NCBI GenBank assembly: GCA_902617645.1
Contig: CACMXM010000002.1
Span: forward strand, 1-52,024
Length of the DNA: 52,024 nucleotides
Reading direction: 5' to 3'
Source: an uncultured Pelagibacteraceae bacterium
GTDB lineage: Bacteria; Pseudomonadota; Alphaproteobacteria; Pelagibacterales; Pelagibacteraceae
Shown piece after piece: positions 46,925-52,022 of this stretch. Made by a program: the position numbers and the translations under genes. The notes beneath the pieces are model-generated. The model saw only the letters and a list, made by a program, of their open reading frames with translations. It made no database searches and was not told where the DNA came from. Every line of letters starts with the position of its first letter. The first letter of the stretch is position 1.

Positions 46925-46967
46925 AAACTAAGCAAAATAGGCTTTTTTAAGAGCAGATTGACGCAAC

Positions 46968-46982
46968 TGATAATCATTCTCA
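46968..46982 (+). promoter_or_regulatory. Fur-like box TGATAATCATTCTCA
   Basis: 7-1-7 match with one mismatch to TGATAATnATTATCA, immediately upstream of the -35 of the iron ABC promoter. Confidence 0.7.
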
Positions 46983-47045: not shown

Positions 47046-48074
47046 ATGAGAAAAATAACAATTTTTGCATTTATTTCATTTTTGTTTGCTTCTACTTTTG
47101 CTATCGCGAATGAAGTCAACATATTCAATGCAAGACACTATAAAGCAGACGGAGAGCTTTACAGTAAATTTACCAATATGACTGGAATAAAAGTTAATCT
47201 GATTAACGGAAAATCAGGAGCTTTAGAAAAAAGAATACTTGAAGAAGGTGCTGATGCTACTGCAGACCTTTACATCACAGCAGATGCTGGAAGATGTGGT
47301 GCTATGGATAAAAAAGGAGCACTTCAAGGAGGTTTAACTTCTGCTGCTATTAAAGCAGCTGTTCCAAAAAGTTTTAGAACAAATAAGTGGGTTGGTATCG
47401 CAAAAAGAGCAAGAATAATTTATTACTCACCAGAAAGAGTTACTGGTGCTGAATTATCTGGAATGACTTATGAAGGTTTAGCTGATCCTAAATGGAAAGG
47501 CAGATTAGTAATAAGAAAATCTAGCAACATATACAATAAATCTCTTGTAGCATCTTTGATCAAAAATAATGGTAAAGCAGCTACTGCTGAGTGGGCAAAA
47601 GGAGTTGTAGCAAATATGGCAAGAACACCTGAAGGTAATGACAGAGCACAAATTATGGCTGTTGCTGCTGGTGAAGCTGATATTGCTGTAGCGAATACTT
47701 ACTATTTAGCACTTATGTTATCTGGTAAAAAAGGTGCAGAGCAACAAGAAGCTGCTAAAAAGGTTAAGGCTTTTTTCCCTAATCAAAATGATAGAGGAAC
47801 ACACATGAATGTTAGCTGTGCAGCTTTAGTAAAAGGTGCGCCTAATAAAGCTAATGCAGTTAAACTTGTTGAGTTTTTATTAACACCAGAGTCTCAAGAG
47901 CATTTTACAAATAATACTTTTGAGTTTCCAATGATTGATGGTGTTTCACCAAGTCCATTAGTAGTAAATAACCTAGGATTAGATTTCAAACAAGATATGA
48001 AAACTAAGCTTTCTTCTTATGGAAAAAATCAAGCTGCTGCAGTAGAGGTTATGACAGCTGCTGGTTGGAAATAA
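47046..48074 (+). CDS. fbpA: Fe(3+) ABC transporter substrate-binding protein (FbpA/FutA-like)
   Basis: Signal peptide, NIFNARHYKADGELY, ANTYYLALML. Confidence 0.92.
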   Translation: MRKITIFAFISFLFASTFAIANEVNIFNARHYKADGELYSKFTNMTGIKVNLINGKSGALEKRILEEGADATADLYITADAGRCGAMDKKGALQGGLTSAAIKAAVPKSFRTNKWVGIAKRARIIYYSPERVTGAELSGMTYEGLADPKWKGRLVIRKSSNIYNKSLVASLIKNNGKAATAEWAKGVVANMARTPEGNDRAQIMAVAAGEADIAVANTYYLALMLSGKKGAEQQEAAKKVKAFFPNQNDRGTHMNVSCAALVKGAPNKANAVKLVEFLLTPESQEHFTNNTFEFPMIDGVSPSPLVVNNLGLDFKQDMKTKLSSYGKNQAAAVEVMTAAGWK

Positions 48075-48078
48075 ATTG

Positions 48079-48249
48079 ATGAATAAAAAGAATTTATTTG
48101 AAATTGATCTAAATAAATCTACTAAGGGATGCGATCCGTGTGCTTTAGAGTGTGAAAAAATCAATGAAAAAATAAATAAAAGAAAGTTATCTGAGCTCAA
48201 AAATAAAGAGGTTTCACACATCCTTAGTATTTTTGAAGACAAAAAGTAA
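48079..48249 (+). CDS. 56-aa cysteine-motif mini-protein (below the ORF-track length cutoff)
   Basis: ATG 5 nt after the fbpA stop, TAA at 48247-48249; MNKKNLFEIDLNKSTKGCDPCALECEKINEKINKRKLSELKNKEVSHILSIFEDKK; CxxCxxxC. Confidence 0.65.
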   Translation: MNKKNLFEIDLNKSTKGCDPCALECEKINEKINKRKLSELKNKEVSHILSIFEDKK

Positions 48250-48267: not shown

Positions 48268-48331
48268 AAGGTTCGTAACTATTTGGTATTACCCCTTTTA
48301 GTTACGAGCCTTTAGTATTATAAGGGTAATA
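48268..48331 (+). promoter_or_regulatory. Predicted H-type RNA pseudoknot in the fbpB leader
   Basis: Stem 1 AAGGTTCGTAACT/AGTTACGAGCCTT (13 bp, one G-U); loop TATTACCCCTT pairs with downstream AAGGGTAATA containing the SD. Confidence 0.6.
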
Positions 48332-48333
48332 TT

Positions 48334-49959
48334 TTGACAAAAAAATTTAATATTTGGTTTGTACTTTCGTTTACAATCTCATTGTTTGTATGCATACCTA
48401 TTATAACTGTTTTTTCAAGTTTCTTTCAGAACACTTCAAATTATTATGAGGTTTTAAAAGATACTTTCTTAATTGAATACATTCTAAATTCATTAACTTT
48501 ACTTATATTGGTTTTAGTATTTACATTTATATTAGGAACTGGAACTGCTTATTTGGTATCATTTTTTACGTTTCCTTTAAGCGATTTTTTTAAGTGGGTA
48601 TTAATTTTATCTTTTGCTGTTCCACCTTATATATATGCTTATTCTTTAACAGCCTTTTTTGATAACTATGGCACTGCTTTTACTATTCTGACAAATTTAC
48701 TAGGCGAGGGTGAATATAATAAAATTATTCCAAAATTTAATGGAATGTTTGGTGCTGTTTTATCAATGACATTTTCTCTATTTGCTTATGTATTCATACT
48801 CTCGAGAGCATCATTTTTGTATCAATCACAAAACCTAATTGATTTAGGAAAAAACCTTGGTTTTTCAAGATTTAAATCGTTTTTTAAGATAATATTGCCA
48901 GCAGCTAGACCTGCTATTGTTGCTGGCTTATCTCTTGTGGCAATGGAAACATTAGCAGAATTCGGTGCAGTAGATTTTTTTTCTATAAATACATTAACAA
49001 CAGGCATTTATAATTCTTGGATTGCTTTTGATGATCTTGCATTTGCCAATAGAATAGCTTCATTTTTATTAGTGTTTATATTTTCCCTTTTTATAATAGA
49101 AAATTTATCAAGAAAAAAAGCTAAGTATCACTTCAATATCAAAGGTGGATTTAAACAGAAAGAAAAGATCAAACTTAAAGGCGCAAAGTCTTTCTTTGCC
49201 TTTGTGTTTTGTTTTTTTGTTTTTTTTATGAGTTTTATATTTCCATTAAGTCAAATGTTATATTGGACGATAAAATTTCCAGAAAATTTATTCGATTTAC
49301 AAATTGTTACTCTTTCTCTTAATACTCTTTATCTAGCATTACTATCTAGCGTAGTATTGATATCGTTTTCTTTAATATCTAATTATGGAAACAGAGTAAC
49401 AAATAACAAAACTTTAAATATCTTATCTACCATGTCAATTTCTGGATATGCAATACCAGGAGTAATACTTGCTGTCGCTTTCATAACCTTCATTGCTTGG
49501 TTTGATAATACAATAATTAAATCATTAGGATTCTTGTCTATTAAAAAAATCTTTTTTGGATCAATATTGGGTTTAGTCCTAGTTTACTTTATAAGATTTT
49601 ATTCTTTAGCATTTAATGGAATAAAATCTGGTTATGAAAAAATTAATATTGCCGTTGATGAAAGCGCTTATATGTTGGGTTACTCAAAAAGAAAAACATT
49701 TATGAACATACATGTCCCCTTTTTAAGAAATTCATTATTATTAATTGTAATATTAATTTCTTTAGAAATAATAAGAGAGTTGCCCATAACTCTTATTTTA
49801 AGGCCTTTTAATTTTGAGACATTTGCAACAACGGCATATGTTTCTGCATCAGAAGATTTACTTGAAGCAGCTGCCGTACCTTCTTTATTTTTAATTTTAA
49901 TTGCGTCAATCTTTATTATAATTGCATCTAAATATATTCTAAGAGAACATAATGAATAA
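48334..49959 (+). CDS. fbpB: Fe(3+) ABC transporter permease (two-domain), TTG start
   Basis: Twin BPD permease domains; second-position gene in iron ABC operon. Confidence 0.9.
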   Translation: MTKKFNIWFVLSFTISLFVCIPIITVFSSFFQNTSNYYEVLKDTFLIEYILNSLTLLILVLVFTFILGTGTAYLVSFFTFPLSDFFKWVLILSFAVPPYIYAYSLTAFFDNYGTAFTILTNLLGEGEYNKIIPKFNGMFGAVLSMTFSLFAYVFILSRASFLYQSQNLIDLGKNLGFSRFKSFFKIILPAARPAIVAGLSLVAMETLAEFGAVDFFSINTLTTGIYNSWIAFDDLAFANRIASFLLVFIFSLFIIENLSRKKAKYHFNIKGGFKQKEKIKLKGAKSFFAFVFCFFVFFMSFIFPLSQMLYWTIKFPENLFDLQIVTLSLNTLYLALLSSVVLISFSLISNYGNRVTNNKTLNILSTMSISGYAIPGVILAVAFITFIAWFDNTIIKSLGFLSIKKIFFGSILGLVLVYFIRFYSLAFNGIKSGYEKINIAVDESAYMLGYSKRKTFMNIHVPFLRNSLLLIVILISLEIIRELPITLILRPFNFETFATTAYVSASEDLLEAAAVPSLFLILIASIFIIIASKYILREHNE

Positions 49960-51010
49960 TTTTTTTGAAGTTGAAAACGTTGATTTTGTTGTTGGTGGAA
50001 ATACAAAAGTTAAAAATATGTCATTTTCTATTGAGAAAGAGGGTGACATTGTTTGTCTATTAGGACCATCCGGGATCGGAAAAACTACCATATTGAGAGC
50101 TATAGCAGGATTAGAAAAAATTAAAAATGGTCATATAAAATTGAAAGGAAAAATTTTGTCTTCAGAAAAAATAAATATTGAACCAGAAAATCGAAATATA
50201 TCACTAGCTTTCCAGGAAAATAGTTTGTTTCCTCATTACTCAGTAGAAAAAAATATATTATTAGGTGCTGAAAAAAATCCAGATAATAAAGACAAAAAAG
50301 TTAGTTTTGATAAGATAGTGGATTTATTAGATATTTCAAAAATATTAAATCAGTATCCACACCAAATTAGTGCTGGAGAGGCTCAAAGAGCTTCTCTTGC
50401 AAGATCTCTTTTATCTAAACCAGATTTACTTTTATTAGATGAACCTTTGTCAAATGTGGATCAAAGTCACAAAGAGGATATACAGGAAAAAATTAAAAAA
50501 TTGCTCGCAAAATTAAAGATTACAACAATAATTGTAACACATGATTCTTATGAAGCTTTTTATTTAGGTACCAAGTGTGGAATAATACTAAACAATGAGC
50601 TTAAACAGTATGATGATCCTTATAATGTTTACCATCTACCTAATTCAATTGAAGTTGTTAATTTTTTAAATAGAGGAATTTTAATACCAGCAAAAGTAAC
50701 TAGTCCAAAAAGTCTTGAAAATGATGAACTTGGAACGATAACCGGAAATTTTGTAAAACCATTTCCACTAGGTGCAAATGTAAAACTTTTGATTCAACCC
50801 GAGGACTTAGAACATGATGATAAAAGCAATCTTCAATTGGAAGTAGTTGATAGAAAATTTAGAGGTACAAATTTTATTTATACATTAAAGACTATGAAAA
50901 ATTTACTTTTACCTGTTTTTGTTCACTCTCATCATATTCATCAACACGATTTAGAAGAAAAATTTGGAATTAAAAGACCAATTCATATCGAGCACCTAGT
51001 TTGTTTTTGA
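49952..51010 (+). CDS. fbpC: Fe(3+) ABC transporter ATP-binding protein
   Basis: GPSGIGKTT, ISAGEAQRASLARSL, LLLLDEPLSNVD. Confidence 0.92.
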   Translation: MNNFFEVENVDFVVGGNTKVKNMSFSIEKEGDIVCLLGPSGIGKTTILRAIAGLEKIKNGHIKLKGKILSSEKINIEPENRNISLAFQENSLFPHYSVEKNILLGAEKNPDNKDKKVSFDKIVDLLDISKILNQYPHQISAGEAQRASLARSLLSKPDLLLLDEPLSNVDQSHKEDIQEKIKKLLAKLKITTIIVTHDSYEAFYLGTKCGIILNNELKQYDDPYNVYHLPNSIEVVNFLNRGILIPAKVTSPKSLENDELGTITGNFVKPFPLGANVKLLIQPEDLEHDDKSNLQLEVVDRKFRGTNFIYTLKTMKNLLLPVFVHSHHIHQHDLEEKFGIKRPIHIEHLVCF

Positions 51011-51011
51011 T

Positions 51012-52022
51012 TTATTGATCACTAACATAAACTGAGACACCTCTTGAGTTTACATCAACATCAAATTTTTTATGAAGAGGTGGAAATGCTCTTTGAGAAC
51101 AGTCTAATCTATCACAAGTTCTACAAGAGACGCCTATAGGTATTTCAGTTTTTTTATCATTTAAATTTAAGTTTTCAGTATAAACAAAATCTTTTGCATA
51201 TTTTGCTTCGCAACCTAGTCCTATTGAGAGAATACTTTTTGCCTCACCAAATCTTCCAATACCTTTTTCTACTGTTTTAGCAATACAGACATATTTTTCA
51301 CCATTTGACATTTTACTAACAGCAGCTTGAATTATTCCAGGTCTTGTGAATGCTGAATATACATTCCATCTTGGACATGCACCACCATACCTTGGTATTT
51401 CAATACCTGATAGTGAAAATCTTTTTGAGATATTTCCTGCAATATCCACTCTTAAAAAATGAAAAGGTATACCTGGCATTTTAGGATCTTGCAAACACGT
51501 TACCCTATGAGCAATTTGTTCAAAAGTTGTTGCAAAAGTATTTTGTAAAAGTTCAAGATCATATTTATTTTTCATACATTCTTTATGAAAAAGTTTGTAT
51601 GGCATTAATATTGCTGCACCACAATAATTTAATAAAGCAACTTGTGTAAGTTTTTTCGACTCATCACTTGGAAAAGAAAATTTTGCTAAATAATCGTTAA
51701 TTATTTTTATTGCACCCTCATGAGCTATCTGCGCAGCAACAAATAATTTTTTTGTCTCGAGTGCTACATAATCGCTTAGCAACAGTTCTTTTTTTCTTTT
51801 ATCGTAAAATTTTGAAAATGGCTTTCTTTCTTCTGGGATAACGTCTTTTACAATAATATTATATTCTTTTTTTAAATATTCGTTAAGAGCAAGATATGTA
51901 GCTCTGTTGTTTACTTGAATTTTATCAAAAATAGTATTTGCATATTCTTCCAATTTAGGAAAATAGTTTTCATTTTCTTGCAAAAAATCTGATACAATTT
52001 CTCCTGGAAAAGCAGCTTTCCT
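51012..52022 (-). CDS. XRE/ScfR-type short-chain fatty-acyl regulator (IrrE-like + DUF2083), truncated at the right edge
   Basis: C-terminal IPIGVSCRTCDRLDCSQRAFPP; frame is open through the window end (RKAAFPGEIVSDF before the listed TTG start at 51983). Confidence 0.8.
   Translation of the reverse strand, partial: RKAAFPGEIVSDFLQENENYFPKLEEYANTIFDKIQVNNRATYLALNEYLKKEYNIIVKDVIPEERKPFSKFYDKRKKELLLSDYVALETKKLFVAAQIAHEGAIKIINDYLAKFSFPSDESKKLTQVALLNYCGAAILMPYKLFHKECMKNKYDLELLQNTFATTFEQIAHRVTCLQDPKMPGIPFHFLRVDIAGNISKRFSLSGIEIPRYGGACPRWNVYSAFTRPGIIQAAVSKMSNGEKYVCIAKTVEKGIGRFGEAKSILSIGLGCEAKYAKDFVYTENLNLNDKKTEIPIGVSCRTCDRLDCSQRAFPPLHKKFDVDVNSRGVSVYVSDQ

Follow-up and report, generated by a model that had tools for sequence, protein, structure and literature searches.

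A previously missed 56-amino-acid protein gene in the ferric-iron uptake operon of Pelagibacteraceae

A small gene between fbpA and fbpB

The window, by which we mean the whole stretch of 52,024 nucleotides from an uncultured Pelagibacteraceae bacterium that was analyzed here, carries on its forward strand an operon with the order fbpA, mini-protein gene, fbpB and fbpC. The first gene, fbpA (sfuC/futA type; 47046–48074), encodes a ferric-iron binding protein that matches Pfam SBP families and whose best PDB match is 6g7n (E 2e-87), with 2pt1, described as an 'Iron transport protein', matching at E 6e-86. The permease gene fbpB (sfuB; 48334–49959) begins with TTG and matches Pfam BPD_transp_1, and fbpC (sfuA; 49952–51010) encodes an ATPase that matches Pfam ABC_tran and the FbpC structure 3fvq (PDB, E 1e-41). 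A ferric-iron binding protein, a two-domain permease and an ABC ATPase are thus encoded in one operon, which defines an importer of the FbpABC/FutABC type. Upstream of fbpA, a Fur-box-like site (46963–46981, forward strand) agrees with the Fur consensus GATAATGATAATCATTATC at 15 of 19 positions, a score that was reached by 2 of 300 shuffles and that two more sites within the window also attain. In strain HTCC1062, the sfuC, sfuB and sfuA mRNAs increase 16-, 10- and 5-fold, respectively, under iron limitation (PMC2864753).

The C-terminal domain of FbpC in Pelagibacteraceae ends in a conserved histidine cluster, HSHHxHQH..KFGIK.PI.I.H.VCF (approximately 50924–50947 in the window; also read in L161–L174), which is a candidate for a cytosolic metal-sensing site. 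Converging on the operon from the reverse strand is a gene (51012–52022) whose product has ScfRs and IrrE-type peptidase domains (short-chain acyl-CoA regulator family).

The mini-protein gene occupies positions 48079–48249 of the forward strand, from an ATG at 48079–48081 to a TAA at 48247–48249, and encodes 56 amino acids. A clean reading frame behind fbpA that ends shortly before a pseudoknot had been proposed from the nucleotide sequence, and its translation was recovered as given: 4 nt separate the fbpA stop codon, which ends at 48074, from the ATG, and the downstream stem-loop begins at 48268, 18 nt past the stop. A TTG at 48076 offers an alternative in-frame start.

Comparison of homologues establishes that this frame is a genuine, previously missed protein-coding gene under purifying selection. 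Across 42 disjoint pairs, we counted 256 amino-acid differences, whereas random placement of those substitutions would be expected to give 357 (z = -11.8). The probability that no stop codon would appear in any pair is approximately 1e-13. Within the window's own clade, variable columns are distributed over the three codon positions as 20:7:21 and the median dN/dS of 66 pairs is approximately 0.29, well below 1; because antisense frames in this clade give medians from 0.37 to 2.1, dN/dS alone is not decisive there, and the wider test of 42 pairs is. No alternative frame is open throughout the 93 distinct copies, although these homologues were gathered as open frames, which makes the openness of the +0 frame partly a matter of construction; an overlapping antisense ORF of 96 amino acids was rejected, its frame being open in just 42 of these 93 relatives. 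Conservation of the frame in homologous operons and dN/dS, the two checks suggested with the original prediction, thus both favor a coding gene. A chance ORF within AT-rich intergenic DNA could be imagined, given that the genome is AT-rich and that several strains have a broken copy or have lost the gene, but the substitution and stop-codon statistics, together with homologues in 223 genomes, already refute this explanation, to which we assign almost no probability. The protein has no significant family match in Pfam, NCBIfam or the PDB, and a literature search found no published work on it.

Distribution, losses and conserved residues

A profile search found the mini-protein in 223 of 397 sampled Pelagibacteraceae (SAR11) genomes, with one copy per genome; among the 140 of these that are near-complete, 102 have it. 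Nothing credible emerged outside this family among 385 genomes across the class, in which the only matches, in G555, were chance ones; the viral contigs searched held no relative, and the gene is absent from five loci (L084–L088) of the neighboring family f2. We examined 90 distinct loci: a script placed the start codon between -20 and +16 nt from the fbpA stop in 85, and inspection by eye located the gene behind fbpA in the remaining five (g6 type) as well. Across the genus, the mini-protein occurs essentially where fbpB occurs, a pattern that linkage alone would also give, and adjacency to fbpA can reflect operon structure only.

Mapped onto a tree of FbpA, presence of the mini-protein requires seven changes, at least five of them on well-supported branches. 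The tree alone cannot separate gain from loss, a distinction that remnants can make. L158 retains a remnant of the gene, the copy in L134 is frameshifted, L151 and L152 have clean deletions, and the deletion in L149 extends into a peroxiredoxin remnant. The gene is also absent from L075; we presume that L075 is HIMB5 and L134 is HTCC7211. It is likewise missing from L153, which we take to be HTCC1062, in part from coordinates in PMC2704228. Most simply, the gene had a single origin in Pelagibacteraceae and was lost repeatedly while fbpABC was kept. Its repeated loss from strains with an intact fbpABC implies that it is not essential for transport; conserved adjacency supports its being a partner of FbpABC, but the association is not obligatory.

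We collected 95 distinct family proteins by means of an anchor that makes no use of cysteine. All 95 contain CxxC, usually as CxPC, with proline preceding the second cysteine in 89, and the family core reads CxPC-x2-E-x2-K-[IM], followed by an N-x-R-x-x-S-E-I stretch. The window's protein has cysteines at positions 18, 21 and 25 (Cys18-Asp-Pro-Cys21...Cys25, codons at 48130–48153), and the motif GCDPCALEC is present as originally described, but only C18 and C21 are family-wide: the third cysteine is kept in 71 of the 95 proteins and is alanine or valine in the other 24. CxxCxxxC is therefore a lineage-level motif, whereas the family core is CxPC, and the argument for metal binding that had been built on the three-cysteine spacing is unsupported in that form. 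Histidine at the position of His47 (codon at 48217–48219) occurs in 54 of the 95 proteins and never without the third cysteine, the single protein tabulated as an exception having its histidine at another position. On the FbpA tree, these two residues change alike in about three quarters of the well-supported independent contrasts and never oppositely; as there are just four such contrasts, too few for significance, we treat the linkage as suggestive and not as proof of a metal site.

An AlphaFold2 model based on 13 sequences places helices at residues 19–33 and 43–54, with the cysteine pair opening the first helix, at low confidence (pLDDT 66, with a poor pTM of 0.30). The protein is hydrophilic (GRAVY approximately -0.9), and no signal peptide or membrane stretch is apparent when the sequence is read by eye. 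Its charge is not conserved, the pI being 8.8 in the window type versus 5.3 in L080.

Structured RNAs behind the gene

An intercistronic stem-loop with a 14-bp stem and a 17-nt loop follows the mini-protein gene (48268–48312, forward strand; fold z = -3.58), and stem-loops occupy the same place elsewhere. On the same strand, its loop sequence GGTATTACCC (48285–48294) pairs beyond the level of shuffles with GGGTAATATT (48324–48333), which forms the ribosome-binding region of fbpB and the 3′ strand of the pseudoknot. A permissive search recovered a stem-loop at all 70 loci with a gap of 60–120 nt to fbpB; it follows fbpA in L153 and L154 and the ORF in the others. Pairing between the loop and the ribosome-binding site is significant in 17 of these 70 loci and is confined to TTACCC/GGGTAA lineages, including that of the window, while the others have the stem-loop only; a universal pseudoknot that sequesters the ribosome-binding site was thus rejected. 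HTCC1062 (L153) and L154 lack the ORF, yet in both of them TTACCC lies opposite ATGGGTAAT where fbpB starts, a pairing that is significant in L154 and has p 0.165 in L153. The GGGTAA partner coincides with the fbpB ribosome-binding site in the window versus the start codon in the HTCC1062 type.

The RNA is therefore kept without the mini-protein ORF in L153 and L154, and the ORF is kept without the RNA in L137, L140, L141 and the g6 loci. Because the two have been lost independently, a partnership between them is unlikely, and we rejected as a main idea the possibility that the mini-protein is a dedicated partner of the RNA element.

In other lineages this position is taken by the orphan potC RNA (RF01751), which is listed as marine only (PMC2864571). 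A search of 300 genomes from the genus detected this RNA above the cut-off in 33, and it lies directly behind the mini-protein ORF in all 30 SAR11 loci that were fetched (L176–L205; for example, L080, L081 and L094), three of which were read by eye. The gene that follows it in these 30 loci is a Redoxin-family peroxiredoxin gene or fbpB. Its consistent position behind the ORF indicates that the potC RNA belongs to the iron operon. The window's own element does not match the potC model at the covariance-model cut-off of 44 bits, and the element of L134 is intermediate, matching at 36.4 bits, below this cut-off. As the potC RNA and the window-type elements have the same position and a common TTTACCC loop, their common descent is plausible on these two grounds. 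We found no paper on the function of the potC RNA in a literature search.

Further structures and genes were observed in the same interval. A group of genomes designated g7 (L133, L135, L136, L138, L139, L143 and L145) has a large conserved hairpin behind the mini-protein ORF, with the core AAATGCTAGCT..TTCTACACTCAAGCC, which precedes either fbpB or an inserted flavodoxin-like gene; it has no Rfam match and is possibly a new structured RNA. Two successive stem-loops with TCTCCTT loops follow the ORF in L017/L079 and L102, and between these and fbpB in L079 lies an ORF (1629–2186) that has no Pfam match and resembles a divergent gene of the peroxiredoxin type. In L078, L080, L081, L084 and L086, the interval from fbpA or the mini-protein gene to fbpB contains a peroxiredoxin gene of the Redoxin family (Pfam E 7e-25), an arrangement seen in several SAR11 lineages, including the neighboring family f2.

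Possible roles in ferric-iron uptake

Several known systems resemble the mini-protein in part. FeoC is a small cytosolic winged-helix protein that contains cysteine and is encoded in feoABC ferrous-iron operons, and the mini-protein is likewise small, contains cysteine and is encoded in an iron-transporter operon. The operon, however, is that of the FbpABC ferric ABC importer, the cysteine spacing is different, the FeoC models of Pfam and NCBIfam give no match, and in all loci read the gene lies between fbpA and fbpB and not beside feoAB, so the protein is not a FeoC. HMA/CopZ soft-metal chaperone domains also have a CxxC that starts a helix, but they adopt a beta-alpha-beta-beta-alpha-beta fold of approximately 70 amino acids with an MxCxxC motif, whereas the low-confidence model of the mini-protein has helices only and its operon concerns iron, not copper; Pfam HMA gives no match, and the mini-protein profile matches a CopA HMA domain at a non-significant E of 0.09. 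NqrM (PF04400), a protein of Na+-NQR maturation, is similarly small and cysteine-containing, but no nqr genes lie beside the mini-protein, and the E values down to 0.034 in 3 of 28 members are at chance level over 28 queries, which led us to reject this identity. The CGPC site of thioredoxin is comparable to CxPC; the thioredoxin fold is lacking, as 56 amino acids compare with approximately 100 for that fold and Pfam gives no match. The FbpA, FbpB and FbpC proteins of Bacillus subtilis, which PMC2864753 cites, belong to the iron-sparing response; they are small and basic and act as partners of an sRNA in trans. They share with the mini-protein a small size and a tie to iron limitation, and no cysteine motif is known to be common to them and the mini-protein.

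An accessory protein of ferric-iron uptake is the best-supported reading. More specifically, we favor a thiol protein of the cytosol that may bind iron as it enters, pass it along or sense it, a proposal to which we give somewhat less than an even chance. Such a protein would be produced alongside FbpA under iron scarcity, would fold into two helices with the thiols starting the first, and would act on the cytosolic side of FbpBC. There its CxxC pair could bind iron that reaches the cytosol, and thereby buffer it, pass it along or signal its arrival. The third cysteine and the histidine might supply further ligands in many lineages, and in those with CxxC only, two chains might pair to bind iron. 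Its place before the stem-loop and its tight coupling to fbpA may also keep its level nearer to that of FbpA than to that of FbpB. Two cysteines alone make a weak argument for metal, and the third cysteine and the histidine are not family-wide. What stands of the 'small cytoplasmic iron-handling or regulatory partner' originally envisaged is a small, hydrophilic protein encoded in the FbpABC operon; its iron binding or regulatory action we infer. A broader proposal, which we consider less likely than not, is that the mini-protein represents a new protein family, a dedicated cytosolic iron acceptor or sensor for the ferric ABC importer, in an operon split by the potC-type RNA such that the binding protein and mini-protein are separated from the permease and ATPase.

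The CxPC might instead be a dithiol/disulfide switch that does not bind metal and serves the transporter or neighboring oxidative-stress enzymes, or aids the reduction of imported Fe(III). The proline before the second cysteine would suit such a redox partner, as would the peroxiredoxin gene that in many lineages separates the mini-protein gene from fbpB and the flavodoxin-like gene inserted before fbpB in L143 and L145. Most mini-protein lineages, however, have no peroxiredoxin there, a thioredoxin fold would need a much longer protein, and the co-occurrence of the extra cysteine with histidine fits a set of ligands better, which makes this role rather unlikely in our estimation. Alternatively, the mini-protein might bind FbpC, for example at its histidine cluster, or the mRNA, and so hold back iron import or the translation of fbpB depending on iron status. 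It shares an operon with FbpABC, the window-type protein is basic, and a structured RNA follows directly, pairing with the fbpB start region in some lineages or being a potC RNA in others; moreover, the histidine cluster is absent from the shorter ATPases (L165, L166) of family f2, which lacks the mini-protein. The cluster nonetheless persists in strains that have no mini-protein, the basic charge is not conserved, and the RNA and the ORF each occur alone, so that neither depends on the other; we hold a regulator of this kind to be unlikely.

If translation of the ORF mattered and its product did not, the gene would be a leader peptide or translational spacer that couples translation or remodels the stem-loop. 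Its position just before a stem-loop able to hide the fbpB start region, and a start codon that overlaps or abuts the fbpA stop, would fit this explanation, but an amino-acid sequence that is conserved across genera under purifying selection, with an invariant CxxC, and the presence of the gene where no RNA structure follows render it highly improbable.

SAR11 bacteria dominate the heterotrophs of the surface ocean, where iron often limits productivity. The name of the potC RNA suggests a polyamine context, and its placement in the iron operon points to iron or oxidative stress, in place of polyamines, as the candidate signal. Most Pelagibacteraceae SAR11 genomes carry an uncharacterized protein within their ferric-iron uptake operon, while HTCC1062, the strain profiled under iron stress, lacks it and L134, which we take to be HTCC7211, has a frameshifted copy. 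If the mini-protein handles or senses iron, the iron physiology of SAR11 as derived from laboratory strains would therefore be missing a component.
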